DNA of 64,000 bases from Roseateles sp. XES5 (GTDB lineage Bacteria; Pseudomonadota; Alphaproteobacteria; Rhizobiales; Rhizobiaceae): the NCBI RefSeq assembly GCF_020535545.1, contig NZ_CP084753.1:434001-498000 (forward strand). Reading direction: 5' to 3'. Shown piece by piece: positions 7,238 to 58,471 of the stretch (the first letter of the stretch is position 1; the number at the start of each line of letters is the position of its first letter). The notes below the pieces were generated by a model, which did no database searches, was not told the DNA's origin, and saw only the letters and a program-made list of their open reading frames with translations. A program made the translations under genes and the position numbers.

Positions 7238-8050
7238 CTATTCGTTGTCCTTCTGAGGCGTACGGCTCAGGAAGAAGAAGAGGGTCACGATCGCCAGCGA
7301 CAGCACGAGGAAGACCGTGGAGATGGCGTTCATCTCCGGCGTCACCACGCGGCGCAGCTGGCCGAGCATATAGGTCGGCAGCGTATCCTGTCCGCCCGAC
7401 TTGACGAATTCGGTGATGACGACGTCGTCGAGCGAGATGACGAAGGCCAGCATCAGGCCCGCGAGAATGCCCGGCCACAGCAACGGCAGCGTGACATAGC
7501 GGAAGGTCTGGAAGGAGGAGGCGTAGAGGTCCGACGCCGCACGTTCCAGCGACAGGTCCATGCTTTCGAGGCGCGCCCGGATCGGCATATAGGCGAAGGG
7601 CACGCAGAAGGCCGAGTGGGCGATGATGAGGTAGCCGAGGCCGGAATAGCCCGTCCACACCTTGATGCGCGAGAAGAGGATGAGCAGCGCCACCGCCGTC
7701 ACGATTTCCGGCACCAGCAAGGGCATGTTGATGATGGAATATTTGAAGGTGAGGCCGCGATAGGGCGCCGTGCGCGTCGTGGCGATAGCCGCGAGCGTCG
7801 CACAGGCCGTGGCGATGAGCGCCGCGACGGCGGCGATCTGAAGCGAGCGCCAGGATGCTTCGACGACCTGCTGGTTGTTCCAGGCGCTCTCGAACCAGCG
7901 GAGCGAAAAACCCTCCCAGGTGGAGATCGACATGCCCGAATTGAAGGCATAGACGACGAGCGTGGCGATCGGCAGGTAGAGCAGGAAGAAGCAGAACATC
8001 GCAATGGTCGCGAAGCCCGGCTGGCGCTTGATGGAGAAGGACTTAGCCAT
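7238..8050 (-). CDS. ABC transporter permease, PotC/PotI type
   Basis: Inner-membrane permease, 270 residues, with about six membrane segments and an EAA-type loop ([18 protein letters not shown], then LPLL). The start at 8050 ([12 protein letters not shown]) is preceded by GGGAGGCGG and overlaps the upstream permease by 8 bases; a longer frame reaches 8101 but lies inside that gene. It is 17 bases from the solute-binding gene. Together with the PotB-like partner it forms the channel of the importer. Confidence 0.92.
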
Positions 8051-8969
8051 GGGCGCCGCCTCCCGACTTCGATGCATTGCGGACGTAGTAGAGCATCGCA
8101 AAGAGCACGATGATGACGAGCGTGACGGAGAGCGCCGCGCCGAGCGGCCAGTTCCGCCCCTGGCCGAACTGCAGCTCGATCAGGTTGCCGACCATGAGGT
8201 TCTTGCCGCCGCCGAGGACGCGCGGCACCACGTAGGATGAGAGCGCCGGCACGAAGACGAGGATGGAACCGGCGATGATGCCCGGCTTCACCAGCGGAAT
8301 GATGATCCGCCACAGCACCCCGAAGCGGGAGGCATAGAGGTCGTAACCCGCCTCGATCAGCCGGAAGTCGAGCTTTTCGAGGCTCGCATAGAGCGGCAGC
8401 ACCATCAGCGGAAGGAAGACATAGGTCATGCCGAGCATGATGGCGAAGTCGGTGAACATCATCTGGATCGGCGCGGAAATGAGGCCGAGCTTCAACAGCA
8501 GCGTGTTGATGATGCCCTCCGAGCGGATCACTTCCTGGATGGCGAAGGTGCGGATGAGCATGTTCGTCCAGAAGGGGATCGTGATCAGGAACAGCCAGAG
8601 AGAGCGGTTGTGCGGCGCGCGCGTCGCGATGAAATAGGCCGTCGGGAAGCCGAAGATCAGGCAGAAGACCGTCGTGGCGAAGGCGAGCTTGGCGCTGCGC
8701 CAGAAGATCGAGAAATGCGCATCCGCAAGCGACACGGTGTCGTCGAAGATGTCGCGGGTGAAGAGGACATTGAACCAGCCCTCCGTCGAGAACTCCCACT
8801 TCACGTCGCCGTAACTGCCGGGCGCGAGGAAGGAATAGAGGACCACGATGACCAGGGGACCGACGCCGGCCGCAAGGATCAGGAGGAGGGCGGGGGCGCT
8901 GAGAAACCAGCGATCCCGGATTTCTTTTTTCTGTCGCTGTTCGCTGACGTCCTGGGCGCTGACCGTCAT
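8043..8969 (-). CDS. ABC transporter permease, PotB/PotH type
   Basis: Inner-membrane permease of 308 residues. It has a basic, charged N-terminus (EQRQKKEIRDRW), then the first membrane segment, a long first periplasmic loop (the LAPGSYGDVKWEFS region) typical of PotB, and the EAA-like loop LIEAGYDLYASRFGVLWRI. The gene starts 2 bases after the ATPase stop and overlaps the next permease, so all are one transcript. The substrate is not deducible. Confidence 0.92.
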   Translation of the reverse strand: MTVSAQDVSEQRQKKEIRDRWFLSAPALLLILAAGVGPLVIVVLYSFLAPGSYGDVKWEFSTEGWFNVLFTRDIFDDTVSLADAHFSIFWRSAKLAFATTVFCLIFGFPTAYFIATRAPHNRSLWLFLITIPFWTNMLIRTFAIQEVIRSEGIINTLLLKLGLISAPIQMMFTDFAIMLGMTYVFLPLMVLPLYASLEKLDFRLIEAGYDLYASRFGVLWRIIIPLVKPGIIAGSILVFVPALSSYVVPRVLGGGKNLMVGNLIELQFGQGRNWPLGAALSVTLVIIVLFAMLYYVRNASKSGGGAHG

Positions 8970-8971
8970 GG

Positions 8972-10069
8972 CTAGTCCCTCAGAATCTGGGCGACATCGT
9001 CATTGATGGCGACGCTGACGCGTTCCTGCTCGGAGAAGCCGCAGGGGCCGCTCTTGGCGTTCTGCTGGCGCACGATGAAGGTGCCGCCGCCATCGACCTT
9101 GACGTGGAAGTGGTTGTCCGTGCCGAGATAGACGATGTCGTCGAGCACGCCGTCCAGCATCCCGGAACCGGCCGTGCCGAGGCGGGCATGTTCCGGACGA
9201 ATGACGATGGTGACCTTGCCCTTCGGCGTGATGTCCTCCGGATAGGTCGCGTTGATTTCCGCGCCGGAGGAAAGCCGCACGCGCGCCTTGTTGCCGGAAA
9301 CCGAAAGGACCTCGGCCTCGAGGAAGTTGGTCTCGCCGATGAAGTCGGCGACGAAGCGCTCCGCGGGACGGTCGTAGATATCCCAGGGCGAGCCGACCTG
9401 CCGGACCGTGCCCGTCGACATGACGGCGATGCGGTCGGACATGGTGAGGGCTTCTTCCTGGTCGTGGGTGACGAAGACGAAGGTGATGCCGGTTTCGAGC
9501 TGCAGGCGCTTGAGTTCCATCTGCATGGACTTGCGCAGTTTCAGGTCGAGGGCGGAAAGCGGTTCGTCGAGCAGCAGGACCTTCGGCCGCGGGGCGAGTG
9601 CGCGGGCGAGCGCCACGCGCTGCTGCTGGCCGCCCGAAAGCTGCGTGACCGGATTGTTGCCGCGCCCCTCGAGATGCACGAGCTTCAGCATGTCCTTGAC
9701 GACGCTCTCGATCTCGGACTTCGGCTTGCCGAGCATCTTGAGACCGAAGCCGATGTTCTCGGCGACCGTCAGATGCGGGAAGAGCGCGTAGTTCTGGAAA
9801 ACCGTATTGACCGGCCGCTGGTTGGGCAGAAGGTTGGAAATATCCACGCCGTCGAGCAGAATCTGCCCTTCGGTTGGCAGCTCGAAGCCGGCGATCATCC
9901 GCAGGAGCGTGGTTTTCCCGCAGCCCGAAGGGCCGAGAAGGGTGAAGAATTCGTTCGAGCGGATATCCAGCGTCACATCATTGACGGCCTGGAAGGTGCC
10001 GAACCATTTCTGGATGCCATGCATGCCAATGGCGCCGCCATGAGCTGCGGTCGTTCGGGTGTCAGTCAT
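8972..10069 (-). CDS. ABC transporter ATP-binding protein, PotA type
   Basis: ATPase of the importer, 365 residues with the ATG at 10069, preceded by GGGGAACCG. Walker A is GPSGCGKTT (residues 46-54), the signature is LSGGQQQR, and Walker B is [11 protein letters not shown]. The C-terminal third is a TOBE/OB regulatory domain, as in PotA. It is the first gene of the minus-strand operon that runs to at least 4930 and perhaps to 2291, and it faces the GntR regulator gene across a 254-base control region holding palindromes. Confidence 0.94.
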
Positions 10070-50320: not shown

Positions 50321-51454
50321 ATGACCCGCGAAACCGTTCTTTCCAATGCCCGTATCGTGCTTGAGGACAGGGTCCTCGACGGCACGCTGGTTCTGCGCGA
50401 CGGCCTTATCGCCGACATTTCCGAAGGCGCGTCCGCTGCCGGCGAGGACATGGAGGGGGACTTTCTCCTGCCCGGCCTCGTCGAATTGCACACCGACCAT
50501 CTCGAAGCCCACTATTCGCCGCGTCCCGGCGTGCGCTGGGGCCTGACGGCCGCGATCCAGGCGCATGACGCCCAGGTCGTCACATCGGGCATCACCACCG
50601 TCTTCGACTGCCTGCGCATGGGTTCGGACGAGGACGGCGGCTTCGAGAAGGGCGAGATGCGCTCCATGGCAAATGCCATTGCCGAGGCGCAGGACGACGA
50701 CCGCCTGCGCGCGCAACACCTCATTCACCTGCGCTGCGAAGTATCGACCGACAACGTGCTCGACCACTACGAGGAATTCGAGGACGACCCGCTCGTCCGC
50801 CTCGTCTCGCTGATGGACCACGCCCCCGGCCAGCGCCAGTTCCAGACGATGGAACAGTACATCCTCTACTACAAGAAGAAGCGCGGCCTGACCGACGACG
50901 AGTTCGCCGCCTTCTGCAAGCGCCAGCAGGATCTTTCCGCCCGCTATGCCAAACCGCATCGCGACGCCATTGCCGCCTCCTGCGCCGCCCGCGACATCTC
51001 CGTCGCCAGCCACGACGATGCGACGCTGGAACATGTCGAGGAAGCCATCGGCTATGGCATCCGCCTTGCCGAATTTCCCACCAGTTTCGAGGCCGCCAAG
51101 GCCTCGCATGGCGCTGGCATGAGCGTGCTGATGGGCGCGCCGAACATCGTGCGCGGCAAGTCCCATTCGGGCAACATCGCCGCTCGCGACCTTGCGGAGA
51201 TGGGCGTGCTCGACGTGCTGTCCTCCGACTACGTTCCGTTCAGCCTCATGCATGCGCCCTTCATCCTGGCCGACGAGGGCATGGATCTGCCGAAGGCGAT
51301 CGCGATGGTATCCACCACGCCCGCCCGCACCGTCGGCCTCGATGACCGCGGGGCCATCGCGAAAGGTCTGCGCGCCGATCTCGCGCGCGTGCGCCGTCCC
51401 TCCGGCGTTCCCGTCGTGCGCTCGGTCTGGCGCCAGGGCCGGCGGGTGGCATGA
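50321..51454 (+). CDS. phnM: PhnM, ribose 1-methylphosphonate 5-triphosphate diphosphatase
   Basis: A 377-residue amidohydrolase-fold enzyme that removes diphosphate from ribose 1-phosphonate 5-triphosphate. The metal-binding segment is GLVELHTDHLEAH; later metal ligands fall in ISVASHDDAT and the last region is LSSDYVPFSLMHAPF. I chose ATG 50321, right after the previous stop. ATGA overlap with phnN. Complete and of normal length. Confidence 0.94.
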   Translation: MTRETVLSNARIVLEDRVLDGTLVLRDGLIADISEGASAAGEDMEGDFLLPGLVELHTDHLEAHYSPRPGVRWGLTAAIQAHDAQVVTSGITTVFDCLRMGSDEDGGFEKGEMRSMANAIAEAQDDDRLRAQHLIHLRCEVSTDNVLDHYEEFEDDPLVRLVSLMDHAPGQRQFQTMEQYILYYKKKRGLTDDEFAAFCKRQQDLSARYAKPHRDAIAASCAARDISVASHDDATLEHVEEAIGYGIRLAEFPTSFEAAKASHGAGMSVLMGAPNIVRGKSHSGNIAARDLAEMGVLDVLSSDYVPFSLMHAPFILADEGMDLPKAIAMVSTTPARTVGLDDRGAIAKGLRADLARVRRPSGVPVVRSVWRQGRRVA

Positions 51455-52041
51455 CCATGGAGGCACGGCCGCTGCCGGCACCGACCGGCACGATGATCGT
51501 CGTGGTAGGGCCGAGCGGCGCAGGCAAGGACAGCGTCATGTCCTATGCCGCACGACACTTTGCCGAGGAGACCCGCGTGGGGTTCGTGCGCCGTGTCATC
51601 ACCCGTCCGGCCGATGCCGGCGGGGAAGCGCATACGGCCATCGATGCGGACGGGTTTCGCAGGCAGGCAGCCGGCGGCGGCTTCGCCGTCTCCTGGGACG
51701 CGCACGGCCTTTCCTACGGCATTCCGCGCGAGACGCTGGCGCAGCTGGCGGAGGGCGTGACGCTCGTCGCGAATGGCAGCCGCTCCGCGCTGCCGGCCTT
51801 TGCCGATGCCTATCCGCGCCTCAAGGTCGTTCTCGTTACCGCCCGGCCCGACATCCTCGCCGCACGCCTTGCCGCCCGCGGCCGCGAGAGCGCCGAGGCC
51901 ATTGCAAAGCGGCTGGACCGCGCCACGCCGGAAATCGTCGTCGCCGCCGACACCGTCGTCATCGACAACAGCGGCCCGTTGGAGGCGGCGGGGGAGGCCT
52001 TCGTTTCCCTGCTGACCGCAGCGCTCGTACGCAGCGATTGA
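51451..52041 (+). CDS. phnN: PhnN, ribose 1,5-bisphosphokinase
   Basis: A 196-residue kinase that makes PRPP from ribose 1,5-bisphosphate. The P-loop is GPSGAGKDS (residues 20-28); the fold is guanylate-kinase-like with VRRVITRPADAGGEAHTAI as the family substrate-binding segment. The ATG overlaps phnM (ATGA); a Met two codons later is an alternative start. This is the last step of the pathway visible here. The next gene is convergent. Confidence 0.93.
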   Translation: MTMEARPLPAPTGTMIVVVGPSGAGKDSVMSYAARHFAEETRVGFVRRVITRPADAGGEAHTAIDADGFRRQAAGGGFAVSWDAHGLSYGIPRETLAQLAEGVTLVANGSRSALPAFADAYPRLKVVLVTARPDILAARLAARGRESAEAIAKRLDRATPEIVVAADTVVIDNSGPLEAAGEAFVSLLTAALVRSD

Positions 52042-52042
52042 A

Positions 52043-53485
52043 TCAGTCGTTTTTCAGGGACTTATAGGCGGCAAGGGCGCGCTCGCGCGCCTTGCCATGG
52101 TTCACGACGGGCTTGGGATAGGTTTTCCCAAGCGCGATCCCGGCGTCCTTCAACGCGCTTTCAGGAGCATCGAAGGGCTTGTGGATCCAGGCGGCATCCA
52201 GCTTTTCCAGTTCGGGCACGAAGGTGCGGACATAGGCGCCGTCAGGGTCGAATTTTTCGCCCTGCAGGATCGGATTGAAGATACGGAAGAAGGGCGAGGC
52301 ATCGGCGCCAGACCCCGCCACCCATTGCCAGTTTGCCGCATTCGAGGCCGCATCGGCGTCCACAAGCGTATCGCGGAACCATGTCTCACCGCGCCGCCAG
52401 TCGATCATCAGATGCTTGATGAGGAAGGAGGCGGTGATCATGCGCACGCGGTTGTGCATCCAGCCGTGTTTCCAAAGCTGTCGCATGCCGGCATCGACAA
52501 TCGGATACCCGGTCATGCCTCGTGTCCAGAGCCGGAAATGCGTCTCGCCCGTTTCCCAAGGAAAGCCGTCGAACCGCGCGTTCCAGTTTTTCTCGGCAAG
52601 CTCCGGGAAGTGGAAATGCAGGTGATGGCAGAATTCCCGCCAGGCCAGTTCCTTGCGGAAATGGATCACATCCTCCGCGGGCGCCTTCAGGCCACGCGTT
52701 GCATGCCAGACGCGGGCAGGGGAGATCTCGCCCATCGCCAGATGCGGCGACAGGAAGGACGTCGCGTCGATCGCCGGCCGGTCGCGGTCCGCCTTGTAGC
52801 CGCCAATCGCATCGTCGACGAAATCGTCGAGCCGTTCGCGCGCCGCATCCTCTCCCGGTGTCCAGATCTCCGCGAAGGATGCCGCCCAGTCCGGCTTTTC
52901 CGGTAGCAACGCCCAATCCGCCAGATTTTCCGAGCCGGGCGGCCTGGCCGGCGACGACAGCCGCTCCGGCGCATCGACCGGTTCATGCGGCTCGCCCTCC
53001 CGCTCCAGCGCCCGCCAGAAAGGCGTATAGACCCGATAAGGCTTCTTCTCGCCGGTCAGGAGACGCATCGGGTCGTGCAGCAATTGCCCGGCAAAACTCT
53101 TTGCAGCGATACCGCGCGCCTTCAAGGAAGCCTTGATGTCCTTGTCGATGGCGATGCCCGGCGGATCGTGCCGACGGTTCCAATAGATCGTGTCGGCGCC
53201 GGTTTCCGCGATGAGACTATCCAGCACGTCGCAGGCTGCCCCGCTGCGCAGAATGAGCTGCGCACCGAGCGCATCCAGCCGCCGGGCGAGGGACGCCAGC
53301 GAATGGTGCAGCCACCAGGCTTGCGCCGCGCCGAGGGGGCCTGTGCCGACGGCTTCAGGCTCGCGAACATAGAGGGCGACGATGGGACGTTCCGTTTGTG
53401 CCGCGGCGGCGAGGGCCGCGTTGTCGTCGGTGCGCAGGTCCTTGCGAAACCAGACGATGACGGGTGCCTGCTCCTGTTGTGCCAT
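52043..53485 (-). CDS. phrB: Deoxyribodipyrimidine photolyase (cryptochrome/photolyase family)
   Basis: A 480-residue blue-light enzyme that repairs pyrimidine dimers. The N-terminal alpha/beta domain begins APVIVWFRKDLRTDDNAAL, as in photolyases. The C-terminal FAD-binding domain shows WREFCHHLHFHFPEL, GMTGYPIVDAGMRQLWKHGWMHNR and MIDWRRGETWFRDTLVDADAASNAANWQW, with the conserved Trp and Asn residues. Length is normal for class I CPD photolyases. It converges on phnN with one base between. Confidence 0.94.
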   Translation of the reverse strand: MAQQEQAPVIVWFRKDLRTDDNAALAAAAQTERPIVALYVREPEAVGTGPLGAAQAWWLHHSLASLARRLDALGAQLILRSGAACDVLDSLIAETGADTIYWNRRHDPPGIAIDKDIKASLKARGIAAKSFAGQLLHDPMRLLTGEKKPYRVYTPFWRALEREGEPHEPVDAPERLSSPARPPGSENLADWALLPEKPDWAASFAEIWTPGEDAARERLDDFVDDAIGGYKADRDRPAIDATSFLSPHLAMGEISPARVWHATRGLKAPAEDVIHFRKELAWREFCHHLHFHFPELAEKNWNARFDGFPWETGETHFRLWTRGMTGYPIVDAGMRQLWKHGWMHNRVRMITASFLIKHLMIDWRRGETWFRDTLVDADAASNAANWQWVAGSGADASPFFRIFNPILQGEKFDPDGAYVRTFVPELEKLDAAWIHKPFDAPESALKDAGIALGKTYPKPVVNHGKARERALAAYKSLKND

Positions 53486-53488
53486 GGC

Positions 53489-53854
53489 TCAATTCCCTTT
53501 CGGCAGGGGTCGCGTCGCGATGAAGAGGGCGCTTGCCGAGAGGATCGAGGCAACGACCGCGGCCAGCAGAAGCGAAGGCTGCACCCGATACCAGAAGAAA
53601 CCGTAGCTGACGGCGATCAGGCTGAGAGCGACCACCTTCGTGCGCCCGGAGATCGCACCCTCGCGCTTCCAGTTGGCGAGAGGCGGTCCGAGCGTGCGGT
53701 GGTTCAGGAGCCAGGCTTCGAGGCGCGGCGAAGAGCGGGAAAAACACCAGACGGCGACGAGCAGGAACGGCGTCGTCGGCAGCAGCGGCAGAAAGACGCC
53801 GATGATGCCGAGCGCCGTCATCAGCAGGCCGGCCAGCATGTAGATCGGGCGCAC
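53489..53854 (-). CDS. YbaN/DUF454-family membrane protein
   Basis: A 121-residue inner-membrane protein with three or four hydrophobic segments. The family pattern GIIGVFLPLLPTTPFLLVAVWCFSRSSPRL is near identical in layout to E. coli YbaN. I chose GTG 53854 (VRPIYMLAG), preceded by CGAGGA; the much longer frame to 54208 is inside the opposite gene. It ends 3 bases before the photolyase gene start. Function of YbaN is not known. Confidence 0.82.
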   Translation of the reverse strand: MRPIYMLAGLLMTALGIIGVFLPLLPTTPFLLVAVWCFSRSSPRLEAWLLNHRTLGPPLANWKREGAISGRTKVVALSLIAVSYGFFWYRVQPSLLLAAVVASILSASALFIATRPLPKGN

Positions 53855-53986
53855 TTGGGTCCTCGTCGAAAGATGCCTCGCCCGATCAGATAGAGTGCTT
53901 TGTCGCCGCCTCCAAGGGGCCAAGGCGTCGCGGCATGTGGAACGAACATCTTCGCCGGGCATTCCTGCGGAACCGGAACAGACGGG

Positions 53987-54808
53987 ATGCAGCGGATGAC
54001 GGACGAAAACGGACAGGTGGACGAGCATATCTGGTGGACCGTGCAGCGCGGCGCTTCGCCCGTCGTCGGCACGGCCATCCATGACGGCCACGCCGTGCGA
54101 CCCGGCCTCCTCGACAAGATGGCGCTCGACGCCCGCGAACGCCTGCGGGAGGAGGATCCGTTTACCGGCGAGACCATTGCCGGCCTCGCCAATCGCATCG
54201 TTTTTCATCGCTCCCGCTTTGAGGTCGACATCAATCGCGCCCGCGACGGCGCGATCTATCTGACGCCGGAGCAGGCATGGGGTCTGAAGGTCTGGCGGTC
54301 GCCGCTATCCGAGACCGAGGTCGACGATAGCCTCGGCGTGCATGATGCCTATTACGACATGCTCGAAAACCACCTGCGCGGCGTTGAGGCGCAGCACGGC
54401 CGCTTCGTCGTGCTCGACATCCACAGCTACAACCACCGGCGCGCCGGACCGGCCGCGCCACCGACGGAACAGAACGCCGCACCCGATATCAATATCGGCA
54501 CCGCCTCCATGGACAGAACGCGATGGGCACCCGTTGTCGATGCCTTCATGGCCTTTGCGGCCGACTTCGACTTCCTTGGCCGCCGGTTGGACGTGCGCGA
54601 GAACATCGCCTTCCAGGGGCGCGGCGAGCAGACACGTTTCATCCATGAGCGCTTTCCCCAAAACGGCTGCGCCATCGCCGTGGAGTTCAAGAAGTTCTTC
54701 ATGGACGAATGGACCGGCACGCCCGACTGGCAGGCCATCGCCGCGTTGCAGGCGCTCCTGACCGCCGCCGTGCCGATCCTTGAACGGGCATTGCGGGAGG
54801 TCGAATGA
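53987..54808 (+). CDS. N-formylglutamate amidohydrolase-like protein
   Basis: A 273-residue hydrolase of the N-formylglutamate amidohydrolase (HutG/FGase) superfamily, which uses zinc. Marks are VVGTAIHDGHAV, FHRSRFEVDINRARDGAIY, and FVVLDIHSYNHRRAGP with a metal-binding His. The classic role is in histidine breakdown, but no hut genes are here; instead it starts an operon with a QEGLA protein and a GshB-like ATP-grasp ligase. Start 53987 is chosen for GGAACAGACGGG before it; 53996 is possible. It overlaps the next gene by 4 bases. Confidence 0.85.
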   Translation: MQRMTDENGQVDEHIWWTVQRGASPVVGTAIHDGHAVRPGLLDKMALDARERLREEDPFTGETIAGLANRIVFHRSRFEVDINRARDGAIYLTPEQAWGLKVWRSPLSETEVDDSLGVHDAYYDMLENHLRGVEAQHGRFVVLDIHSYNHRRAGPAAPPTEQNAAPDINIGTASMDRTRWAPVVDAFMAFAADFDFLGRRLDVRENIAFQGRGEQTRFIHERFPQNGCAIAVEFKKFFMDEWTGTPDWQAIAALQALLTAAVPILERALREVE

Positions 54809-56700
54809 CCAGAGAAAGATCCGCACGTAAACCGCCTGCGGCGAAAGCGAAATCGCTTGCAGAGGAGGTGATTGCGGCGCTTGCGGCCGGCAAGCCCGTG
54901 CGCCGGGAGCTGGACGGTGGCCGGCTGCACATCGACCGCCCACTGCCGTTCCTGTGCGTCTACATCGGCGATCCCGAAGCCCATATCGTGGCCCGCGAAG
55001 TGGCGGCAGCCAATGCCTCCTATCTGCTTACCCGCACTGTCGAGGATGCCTTGCCGCTGATCGCCTCCATTGCCGAGGCACTGCGCAAGCAATGCGGCGC
55101 CTTCGTGCTGCTCGACGTGGATGAATTCCAGCGCGATCGGCTGCTCTCCGGCGATGCCCCCTTCCTCCAGCCGTTCGAGGTGATGCTGTCCGCGCCGGAC
55201 GGAAAGGCCGGGGCGAGCGCGATGGCGGCCTTCGAGACGGCAGTAGAGGGGTTCGAGACGCGTTTCCGGACGCCACGGGTCGAGACCTGCGCGGCAAGCG
55301 ACGATCCCTGCGCACGGCCGGAGCTGCTTTCCCTGAAGCTTCCCCTGCTGACGCTGCGCTTCGCACCGATCTATCGCGTTACCGGCTCGGACGCGATCTA
55401 CCCCGACCTGCGCGAGCGCCTCATCGACAACTTCCTCGACGCCGGTCTGCAGGCCCTGACGGCTTATCTCGAAGCGGAGGGTTTCCCGAAACCGGCAACC
55501 TACCGCGCCTTCGGCCGCAAGGCCTTCATCGATGCGGTCGAGCGCGCGGACCGCGGCATGGACGACGTCGCGTCCAGTTTCGACTTCCTCCTCGCCGTAA
55601 CCCCGATCAATGCCAATGCCGCCTGGCAGGAGTTCAAGGCAAACCGCTTCGACCGGCCGCCGCGGTTCCTCTATCGGCCGCTGAGCCTTCTGGTGGAACG
55701 GGAGAAGCGCCGCCTCTACGCCATCGCGCTCGACCGGCTGGAAGATCCGGTCCTGCATCAGATCTACCGCGAGAAGCGGCAGGAACTCGATCTTCAGCTG
55801 ACGCTCATCGCCGAGCGCGAAAGGGCGCGCTTCGTCGAGTTCGGCCGTGCGCTCTATGGCCCGGTCGAGCCATCCCTGCTGAAAGCGGCTTCAGAGGTTC
55901 TCGACGGCACCACCAGGGCACAGCGCATGCCGACCCGCACGCCCGATGACGAGGATGTGGTGGATTGCTTCCATGTCGAGCGGCGTGCCCGCGCGATGAT
56001 GATGTCCTACCATCAGCGCTATGACGGGTTCGATGCGGCCATCGAGTTGCGCGACGACGTGCCGGCGGGCCTGCTCGTCTCCGGACCGCGCCTCCTGATC
56101 TCACGGCGCACGCGCATGATGCGCCAGCGCGTCGATGCCCTGCTCAGCCACGAAGTCGGGGTGCACCTTCTCACCTATTTCAACGGCTCGGCGCAGGGCT
56201 TGCGCGTCTTCCGCACCGGCCTTGCCGGCTATGAAGGCATGCAGGAAGGACTTGCGGTCTTCGCCGAATTCCTGGCCGGCGGCTTCACGCCGGAGCGGTT
56301 GCGGCTGCTTGCCGCGCGCGTCGTCGGGTGCGACCTGATGCTGGCAGGCGCCTCCTTCGTCGAAAGCTTCCAGCACCTCACCCGGCAGCACGATCTCGAT
56401 GCGGAAACCGCCTTCGGCCTGCTGTTGCGCGTCTTTCGCGGCGGCGGGCTTGCCAAGGATGCGATCTACCTGCGGGGTCTCCTGTCCCTGCTCAGCCATC
56501 TGAAGGCCGGTGGTGCGCTCGATCCGTTCTGGATGGGCAAGATCGCCGCGATCCATTTCAGCGTGATGGAGGAACTCGGCGTGCGCGGCCTGCTGAAGCC
56601 GCCGGTCCTCCGCCCGCTGTGCCTCGAAACGGAACGCGGACGCGCGCGGCTGGAGCGCGCCCGCACCGGACTCACCCCCCTTGCCATGCTCGAAGCTTGA
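54805..56700 (+). CDS. QEGLA-motif metallopeptidase-like protein (DUF1704)
   Basis: A 631-residue protein of the flavohemoglobin expression-modulating QEGLA family. HExxxH appears as His449-Glu-Val-Gly-Val-His454, and the QEGLA motif is at residues 480-484, whose Glu may be the third zinc ligand. The same DUF1704 fold is used by eukaryotic MATCAP tyrosine carboxypeptidases. The N-terminal 350 residues are unlike that domain and unrecognised. It overlaps the FGase-like gene (ATGA) and is followed 11 bases later by the ATP-grasp ligase, so the three act together. Its substrate is unknown. Confidence 0.88.
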   Translation: MTRERSARKPPAAKAKSLAEEVIAALAAGKPVRRELDGGRLHIDRPLPFLCVYIGDPEAHIVAREVAAANASYLLTRTVEDALPLIASIAEALRKQCGAFVLLDVDEFQRDRLLSGDAPFLQPFEVMLSAPDGKAGASAMAAFETAVEGFETRFRTPRVETCAASDDPCARPELLSLKLPLLTLRFAPIYRVTGSDAIYPDLRERLIDNFLDAGLQALTAYLEAEGFPKPATYRAFGRKAFIDAVERADRGMDDVASSFDFLLAVTPINANAAWQEFKANRFDRPPRFLYRPLSLLVEREKRRLYAIALDRLEDPVLHQIYREKRQELDLQLTLIAERERARFVEFGRALYGPVEPSLLKAASEVLDGTTRAQRMPTRTPDDEDVVDCFHVERRARAMMMSYHQRYDGFDAAIELRDDVPAGLLVSGPRLLISRRTRMMRQRVDALLSHEVGVHLLTYFNGSAQGLRVFRTGLAGYEGMQEGLAVFAEFLAGGFTPERLRLLAARVVGCDLMLAGASFVESFQHLTRQHDLDAETAFGLLLRVFRGGGLAKDAIYLRGLLSLLSHLKAGGALDPFWMGKIAAIHFSVMEELGVRGLLKPPVLRPLCLETERGRARLERARTGLTPLAMLEA

Positions 56701-56711
56701 GGAGAGCAACC

Positions 56712-57758
56712 ATGCGTATCGCCTTTTTCGTCAACTCGATCGAGGGGGAAACCCCGACCTACACCACCACCGCGCTCGCCATGGCGGCGCTCTCGCGGGG
56801 GCACGACATCTGCTACCTGACGCCCGGTGACTTCGTGCTTCGGGCGGACGACAGCCTCAACGTGCGCGGCCGCCTTCTGCCCGGCAAGCGCTACAAGAAG
56901 GCGGAAAGTTTCCACGCGGCCCTTCAGGGCGACGAAACGACCGTGGAGACGATGGACGTGCGCGACGTCGACGTGCTGTTCCTGCGCAACGATCCTTCGC
57001 TCGATGCTGAGGCGAGGCCCTGGGCGGCCCATGTCGGCGCGATGTTCGGCCGGTTGGCGAGCGCCCGCGGTACGATCGTCGTCAACGATCCGGACGGTCT
57101 CGCCCTCGCGCAGAACAAGCTTTACTTCCAGGCATTTCCGCAGGCCGTCCGACCGGAAACGCTGATCTCCAAGAGCATCGATGAAATCCGCGCCTTCATC
57201 GACATGCACAAGGAGGGCGTGATCGTGAAGCCCCTGCAGGGCTCCGGTGGCAAGAACGTCTTCAAGATCGGCTCGCCGGACGAAGCCAATCTCAACCAGA
57301 TCTTCGAGGCGGTGAGCGGGGAAGGGTACCTGATCGCCCAGAACTATCTGCCGGCGGCGAGCGAAGGCGATATCCGCCTCTTCCTGATGAACGGCCGCCC
57401 ACTCGTGCGCGACGGCAAATATGCCGCGATCCGGCGCGTGCCGGCAAAGGGCGAGGTGCGTTCCAACATCCACGCCAGCGGCACGGCGGCCCCCGTCGCG
57501 ATCACGCCCGACATCCTCGCCATTGCCGAGATGGTGCGCCCGAAACTCGTCGAGGACGGCATGTTCCTCGTCGGCCTCGACATCGTCGGCGACAAGATCC
57601 TGGAAATCAACGTCTTCACGCCGGGCGGGCTGAGCACGATGTTCGATCTCTACGAGGCCGATTTCGCAGACAGCGTCATCGCCGCGCTGGAGGAAAAGGT
57701 CGCCCAGCGCGACGCCTATGCCGGCGCCATCGCCAACCGGACGCTCGCAACGCTGTAG
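56712..57758 (+). CDS. GshB-like ATP-grasp ligase
   Basis: A 348-residue protein with the prokaryotic glutathione synthetase layout: an N-terminal substrate domain (MRIAFFVNSIEGETPTYTTT) and an ATP-grasp domain with VIVKPLQGSGGKNVFKI (glycine-rich loop) and the metal-binding ILEINVFTPGGLS. The start at 56712 follows GGAGAGCAACC. It could make glutathione, but the usual gshB is a separate housekeeping gene in rhizobia and this copy sits in an operon with FGase-like and QEGLA proteins, so a peptide- or protein-modifying ligase is possible. Confidence 0.85.
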   Translation: MRIAFFVNSIEGETPTYTTTALAMAALSRGHDICYLTPGDFVLRADDSLNVRGRLLPGKRYKKAESFHAALQGDETTVETMDVRDVDVLFLRNDPSLDAEARPWAAHVGAMFGRLASARGTIVVNDPDGLALAQNKLYFQAFPQAVRPETLISKSIDEIRAFIDMHKEGVIVKPLQGSGGKNVFKIGSPDEANLNQIFEAVSGEGYLIAQNYLPAASEGDIRLFLMNGRPLVRDGKYAAIRRVPAKGEVRSNIHASGTAAPVAITPDILAIAEMVRPKLVEDGMFLVGLDIVGDKILEINVFTPGGLSTMFDLYEADFADSVIAALEEKVAQRDAYAGAIANRTLATL

Positions 57759-57759
57759 G

Positions 57760-58080
57760 TCAGATCGGCTTGCTGTTGATCGCCTTGGCCGATTTCGCCT
57801 TCGCGACGGCCTTGGCGGCAACCGGTTTTTCCGCTTCCGCCTTCTTCTTCGGCTTGGCAGAGACGGTGTTCGTGGCCTTCGCGTCAGTGGAGATGTCGAT
57901 CAGCGGCTTCTTTGCGCCGATCGGCTTGACGTCGTCGACAAGCGCCACGCGCTCGAACTCGTCGCGCTCGCGCACTGCCTGTTCCCAATGATCGCCGTCA
58001 TGCCCGTGAGGGCGGCCGGCCTCTTCCCAGAGCGTGTAGGCCCGCTTGCTGATCCATTCCCGTCGCGCATCCGTCATCAT
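57760..58080 (-). CDS. DUF2934-domain small protein
   Basis: A 106-residue protein. The N-terminal 45 residues (ARREWISKRAYTLWEEAGRPHG, in two pieces: residues 5-15 and 16-26, then HDGDHWEQAVRE) are a DUF2934 domain; the rest is a basic, Ala/Lys-rich tail like those of nucleoid-associated proteins. I chose ATG 58080, preceded by GGGGGTCA. It converges with the ATP-grasp ligase with 1 base between. Function unknown; such proteins are common in rhizobia. Confidence 0.8.
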   Translation of the reverse strand: MMTDARREWISKRAYTLWEEAGRPHGHDGDHWEQAVRERDEFERVALVDDVKPIGAKKPLIDISTDAKATNTVSAKPKKKAEAEKPVAAKAVAKAKSAKAINSKPI

Positions 58081-58471
58081 TGACCCCCGTTCGGTGTGAA
58101 TTGACGCCGTGCCGGAAATGCCGCGGGCAGGAACCGGAACACGGAACTGACTGGCGGCCGGGAACAATCGACCGGCTGTCCAGATATTCGGCGCACCTTG
58201 CGCTCCCGGCAGTGCCGCAGCGGAGCAGGTCTGCTTCATGCGATTCGCAAGGTCTAGAATGCGCTTGAAACGAAGGGGCAGCAAGCAGGACCAGGCGCGA
58301 CAGAATGCCGGCTTTCGCGAATGGTAAGGAAAATCATCCCGTCTTTTGCGGCAAATCGGCTCAATTTTGGAAAAGTTTCATGCCCGCGGGTGGACAGCGC
58401 CGTTCCCGCCAACGTATTGTCCTGATGAAAGAATCCTTCAGGATGGGCGACGATATCGAGAGGCAGCGCGT
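58081..58471. other. Noncoding stretch with no recognisable element
   Basis: About 390 bases between the DUF2934 gene and the doubtful secreted-protein gene. I found no known RNA, repeat, riboswitch or clear operator, and no frame with a ribosome site. It must hold the promoter of the DUF2934 gene and perhaps others. Confidence 0.6.

Follow-up and report, generated by a model that had tools for sequence, protein, structure and literature searches.

An operon pairing FGase-family and QEGLA/MATCAP-family proteins with a GshB-like ligase as a candidate carboxyl-end add-and-trim module

We analyzed a 64,000-nucleotide stretch of Roseateles sp. XES5 (contig NZ_CP084753.1, positions 434,001 to 498,000; hereafter the window), in which three plus-strand genes encoding an FGase-family metallo-amidohydrolase, a QEGLA/MATCAP-family protein and a GshB-like ATP-grasp ligase form a tight operon. 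The stop codon of the FGase gene overlaps the QEGLA start by four bases (ATGA at 54805-54808), and the QEGLA stop (56700) is followed, after a gap of 11 bases, by the ligase ATG (56712); the coordinates, strands and spacing given in an earlier note, which had been made from the sequence alone, were all reproduced. The FGase start at 53987 matches a 273-amino-acid database protein (P0121), and the closest named relatives are from Shinella. Residue conservation was counted in 80 named loci, the most similar of at least 573 relatives from a profile scan (loci are numbered L and genomes G below). The features of the operon are as follows.

53987..54808, + strand: FGase-family (PF05013) metallo-amidohydrolase, 273 amino acids, predicted active (Pfam, NCBIfam, conserved residues)
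54080..54082, + strand: FGase His32, first His of AIHDGH, predicted metal ligand (78 of 80 relatives, two uncovered)
54422..54424, + strand: FGase His146 (LDIHSY), predicted metal ligand (80 of 80 relatives)
54683..54685, + strand: FGase Glu233 (VEFKK), predicted catalytic glutamate (80 of 80 relatives)
54805..56700, + strand: QEGLA/MATCAP-family protein, 631 amino acids (Pfam; TIGR02421, 348 bits against a cut-off of 339)
54805..55608, + strand: its N-terminal domain, residues 1-268, degenerate FGase / M14-type fold (alignment, model)
55627..56658, + strand: its predicted MATCAP zincin carboxypeptidase domain, residues 275-618 (PF08014 match, alignment, model)
56149..56166, + strand: HEVGVH (His449, Glu450, His454), predicted HExxxH metal-binding and catalytic motif (alignment, conservation)
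56245..56247, + strand: Glu481 of the QEGLA motif, predicted third metal ligand (alignment, conservation)
56712..57758, + strand: GshB-like ATP-grasp ligase, 348 amino acids, NCBIfam NF009110/PRK12458 subfamily (profile scores)
57459..57482, + strand: RSNIHASG loop of the ligase, residues 250-257, aligned with the Arg233-Gly240 loop of E. coli GshB
57603..57629, + strand: EINVFTPGG of the ligase, residues 298-306, subfamily signature (canonical GshB has EINVTSPT there)

The separate FGase protein matched PF05013 (89 versus 28.9 bits in Pfam) and keeps the catalytic residues of its fold together with the DxNR motif, which binds the carboxylate in M14/aspartoacylase enzymes. It shares family and conserved residues with the N-formylglutamate deformylase HutG, but reached only 26 bits against the HutG cut-off of 278.75 (TIGR02017), and no histidine-degradation enzyme was found among the seven window proteins scanned.

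The QEGLA protein is a predicted carboxypeptidase of the MATCAP family. Its residues 275-618 match PF08014, now named MATCAP, at 292 versus 27 bits, and His449, Glu450, His454 and Glu481, which stand where the earlier note had placed them, are conserved in all 80 named relatives. In a profile alignment with human KIAA0895L, HEVGVH pairs with the HExxxH motif and the QEG that holds Glu481 pairs with an EEG motif, within which the third metal-binding residue of the human enzyme is proposed in the available part of the source (PMC10499314). Structure-search alignments placed the MATCAP fold in the predicted structure of the QEGLA protein, which supports the suggestion of the earlier note that the fold is common to eukaryotic MATCAP enzymes; with the whole QEGLA model as query, no Foldseek match reached E ≤ 0.001, and the best 50 matches listed did not include human MATCAP.

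The large N-terminal part of this protein, previously taken as unrecognised, is recognisable as a degenerate FGase domain. In an alignment with four own-genome FGases (L083, L084, L087, L089), both metal-binding histidines and the DxNR motif were lost in all six N-terminal domains aligned; by alignment and structural model the domain descends from an FGase whose metal site has decayed. The possibility of a new fold was ruled out by the FGase alignment and the structural match. In L045-L049 and L054, FGase and MATCAP form a single open frame of 660-703 amino acids beside the ligase, and both Pfam domains were present in all 120 homologues of the L049 fusion (the best 120 of 750), with Colwellia, Thalassotalea, Litorilituus, Thalassomonas and Psychrobium as named carriers among the matches listed. 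The model of the fusion had a predicted local distance difference test score below 50 over residues 34-118 and 146-255, and its FGase half was left unused. Since they are fused in one protein, FGase and MATCAP would act together, and the decayed domain suggests that the binding role of the FGase outlived its catalysis.

The third protein contains the GSH-S_N and GSH-S_ATP domains of Pfam (the latter at 173 bits) and belongs to the NF009110/PRK12458 subfamily (479 bits against a cut-off of 408). It has both domains and the Arg/Gly loop in common with GshB, but falls below the canonical cut-off (TIGR01380, 197 versus 299 bits) and carries another C-terminal signature. This signature reads EINVF[ST]PGG, or E[IV]N[VI]..PGG once fusion-type sequences are included (14 sequences), where canonical GshB has EINVTSPTG in the window's genome and INVTSPTC in E. 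coli; Pro304 and Gly305 are kept in 78 of the 80 named loci (two uncovered) and Gly306 in 70. RimK-type ligases also have a PG at this position. At E ≤ 0.001 the solved relatives were only glutathione synthetases and then RimK-type alpha-L-glutamate ligases (six sequences), with no tubulin-tyrosine ligase (TTL) among them by sequence comparison alone, and the kinship to TTL that the earlier note had drawn is thus weak.

The co-occurrence of these genes was examined in samples of 394 Rhizobiaceae and 398 Pseudomonadota genomes. PF08014 was present in 46 Rhizobiaceae genomes, 45 of which carried NF009110 over the cut-off, while in the 46th (G603) the ligase is a piece cut by the contig end. The ligase adjoins QEGLA on the same strand in all 46, with 42-222 bases between the profile matches, and NF009110 over the cut-off was found in none of the 348 genomes without PF08014 (Fisher p 3e-61 with G603 scored present, a value that is too small since the genomes are related). 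Among the Pseudomonadota, PF08014 occurred in 47 genomes and NF009110 over the cut-off in 14, its scores dropping across a clean gap from 436 to 241 bits. Thirteen of these 14 genomes carry a long- or fusion-type PF08014 gene as well (the type in G232 being judged from the match alone), and in the 14th, G168, the ligase lies at base 48 of its contig. All 80 named loci have FGase upstream and ligase downstream of QEGLA on the same strand, 77 of them within narrow distance limits; the other three differ in spacing, the ligase match starting one base before the QEGLA match ends (L167), the best matches being the second and third of three ligases (L168), or the FGase being a piece at the contig edge (L169). 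These loci span Rhizobiales, Brevundimonas and metagenome-assembled genomes labelled Gemmatimonadota, Proteobacteria, Phycisphaerae and Verrucomicrobia. Since no outside gene cluster reached more than 11 of 81 loci (the 80 and the window), the trio is kept while its flanks are not. Both partners were likewise present in 17 of 19 long/fusion loci fetched from the Pseudomonadota (L044-L059 and L077-L079, part of those found). Mirror-distance correlations of the loci were 0.81-0.97 (96 of 97 loci) and mostly reflect shared descent; ratios of non-synonymous to synonymous substitution were defined in 19 of 20 cells, the undefined one being the ligase of L093. Co-location by chance in a few genomes, the outcome that the earlier note had thought damaging, is ruled out by the 80 named loci and the 46 coupled Rhizobiaceae genomes, and the trio recurs in distant bacteria.

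A free carboxylate is the site next to which FGase, M14 and MATCAP-type enzymes cut, and it is the group that GshB-type enzymes extend. A single substrate that is extended and trimmed at its carboxyl end is the simplest joint reading of the operon. From the computed conservation and coupling of the operon, its domain identities and its conserved residues, we infer a three-enzyme add-and-trim module with a common substrate, for which a small (gamma-)glutamyl or glutathione-like peptide is the likeliest candidate, a proposal whose chances we judge to be evenly balanced. The GshB-like enzyme would use ATP to activate the C-terminal carboxylate of the substrate and then couple it to an amine, probably that of an amino acid; the MATCAP protein would take off a C-terminal residue by zincin chemistry, using HExxxH and Glu481. 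The separate FGase may split an N-acyl or gamma-glutamyl linkage to release an amino acid, and holding or presenting the substrate is the probable role of the degenerate FGase domain in the MATCAP protein. The add-and-remove cycle of ligase, peptidase and zinc amidase suggested in the earlier note is partly supported, in that the families and residues agree with these predicted activities.

Several observations weigh against this module. One of the six N-terminal domains retains Glu in the catalytic column, and the predicted fold of the domain matches M14 carboxypeptidases as well as FGase. The FGase half of the L045 fusion is changed from His146 to Asn and from Glu233 to Gln, so FGase activity may not always be needed. 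The other 34 Pseudomonadota genomes with PF08014 have no NF009110 ligase over the cut-off; L055 has the ligase without an FGase in its 12.5 kb, L050 has neither partner although it is a long/fusion locus, and in L052 and L056 the FGase is found 2.4-2.8 kb upstream, separated by other genes. Neither FGase nor ligase was found within the fetched stretch of any of the 17 short-type QEGLA loci (L060-L076), where L066 gave one weak ATP-grasp match 5 kb away. A second, unlinked NF009110 ligase is present in six Rhizobiaceae genomes of one genus, and six of the 14 Pseudomonadota genomes with the ligase (G066, G097, G153, G168, G172, G232) have no canonical GshB over the cut-off.

The last point bears on glutathione turnover, in which the ligase would be an ordinary glutathione synthetase paralogue and the hydrolases would release Gly or gamma-Glu from glutathione or glutathione conjugates, an account that we consider unlikely but worth keeping in view. 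E. coli GshB is the nearest solved relative of the ligase (142 bits) and its Arg233-Gly240 loop is kept; moreover, as the six genomes without canonical GshB all have a GCS2-family match (8 of 8 tested, with two others), glutathione is a possible product of the ligase in those lineages. The GCS2 family is not limited to glutamate-cysteine ligases, E. coli-type GshA (PF04262) had no match in any of the eight, and for two of the six genomes, G168 and G232, completeness is 82% and 65%. A separate canonical GshB over the cut-off in the remaining eight of the 14, including the window's genome (411 bits), argues against this account, as do the subfamily gap between 436 and 241 bits, the PGG-type motif in place of EINVTSPTG, and the ligase tandems (two in L166, three in L168). 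The earlier note had named a ligase making nothing but glutathione as a refutation, which does not hold in the window's genome and is possible in 6 of the 14.

A cycle on a protein tail, with the ligase adding to a protein C-terminus and MATCAP removing the addition in the manner of tubulin tyrosination or of S6 glutamylation by RimK, seems to us quite improbable: the ligase is closest to GshB rather than to RimK or TTL, and no target protein was conserved in the neighbourhoods examined. It would nevertheless agree with the fold match in the model, with the trimming of tubulin tails by MATCAP/TMCP enzymes described in the available part of PMC10499314, and with the divergent RimK-type gene beside the L045 operon. 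In Photobacterium damselae, a gene named QEGLA, its type unspecified, was 27.5-fold higher at 1% than at 3% NaCl, with rimK named among the top 20 genes (PMC10308900, as far as the available part of the report goes). A fuller form of this idea, a bacterial counterpart of tubulin tyrosination and detyrosination in which the ligase adds C-terminal residues, MATCAP removes them and the dead FGase domain serves as reader in hypo-osmotic or envelope stress, is similarly a long shot. We regard as very unlikely a mechanistically unlinked stress operon of three jointly expressed enzymes with different substrates. The six second ligase copies standing alone and the 17 short-type QEGLA loci without partners nearby are in its favor, but two of the three proteins are fused in some lineages, the non-fused form contains a derived FGase domain, and the coupling in 46 of 46 genomes is complete.

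Among neighboring genes, MscS-type genes assigned by Pfam stand by four operons (L045 9001-9525, L168 12140-15601, L052 159-2040, L055 2147-6279), that of L045 only 20 bases downstream on the same strand and those of L168, L052 and L055 alongside a CorA gene. A profile from these four matched at least 4 kb off in the Rhizobiales loci L096, L101, L108, L109 and L110, of which Pfam confirmed three as MscS-type; by tblastn, such genes were counted near 7 of 100 long/fusion loci and none of 17 short-type ones, a count that missed L045 and L108. In L051 (3765-6777), the ligase is followed on the same strand by an rlo-type set of a putative zinc/retropepsin-type protease, a transglutaminase-7TM protein and an ATP-grasp protein (ATPgrasp_ST), and rlo genes govern the hypo-osmotic tolerance of Pseudomonas aeruginosa according to the available part of PMC12239564. 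A hypo-osmotic or mechanosensitive-channel role is a lead only, and the evidence for it, which includes the QEGLA gene of Photobacterium damselae, comes from organisms other than that of the window.

No conserved small precursor-peptide gene was seen in the neighbourhoods compared. Four small, apparently secreted proteins of 90-124 amino acids with two shared cysteines (L056 13174-13895, L052 4237-4509, L055 10536-10838) lie near the operon in three loci, which represent at most two gamma-type genera, and no Pfam match was obtained for the two that were scanned (one from L052, one from L056). A LysR-type regulator lies near the operon in L044, L047, L048, L049, L051, L052, L054 and L055 (LysR-type proteins made up 10 of 82 scanned neighbors), and CDP-alcohol phosphatidyltransferase genes lie in or beside it in L056 (10884-11687) and L049 (9691-10356). 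The partnerless gene of L050 (8158-10080) is the second long-type QEGLA gene of G153, near Na/H exchanger-TrkA and CNNM genes, and the second ligase copies (L178-L183, at about base 7600-9000 each) lie away from QEGLA in varied neighbourhoods. In the window, phnN (ribose 1,5-bisphosphokinase, 51451-52041) and a DNA photolyase gene (52043-53485) precede the operon, and a convergent DUF2934 gene (57760-58284) directly follows it, with DUF2934-like matches near the operon in 8 of the 80 named loci. No promoter-like site was found in 53700-58000, and the two terminator-like sites there, both on the minus strand, were not above shuffles.

Each of these families is already known, and the trio is an addition to the ligase-peptidase kind of gene cluster. 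Iyer et al. reportedly described predicted amidoligase-peptidase neighbourhoods and the general cluster idea in 2009, which is possible prior art for the trio. A search of the available literature found no description of the FGase-QEGLA-ligase trio and no paper on the function of bacterial MATCAP relatives, and no passage on bacteria was found in the available part of the MATCAP1 preprint (PMC12393276). Compared with the MATCAP/TMCP tubulin carboxypeptidases (KIAA0895L, KIAA0895; PF08014), the window protein is bacterial, has 18% identity over the aligned part, and adds the degenerate N-terminal FGase domain and a ligase in the same operon, and it is not expected to act on tubulin. The RimK-RimB and RloABC operons of Pseudomonas likewise combine an ATP-grasp protein with a peptidase, but their peptidases are aspartic retropepsins, not metallo-carboxypeptidases, and a transmembrane transglutaminase-like protein is involved (PMC12239564, in the part available).

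With its own ligase in a conserved operon, the MATCAP-family protein offers a direct route to its substrate, as the product of the ligase is a candidate for cleavage by its neighbors. The 'unknown' domain would be explained as a decayed enzyme domain put to new use, with fused and half-decayed forms still extant. If the substrate is a protein end, the operon would represent a reversible C-terminal modification system in bacteria, and should the tyrosination-like cycle be true, the MATCAP enzymes of eukaryotes would represent the hydrolase side of a bacterial pair that predates them. If the substrate is instead a small thiol or gamma-glutamyl peptide, the operon would constitute an unrecognised branch of glutathione-type metabolism.

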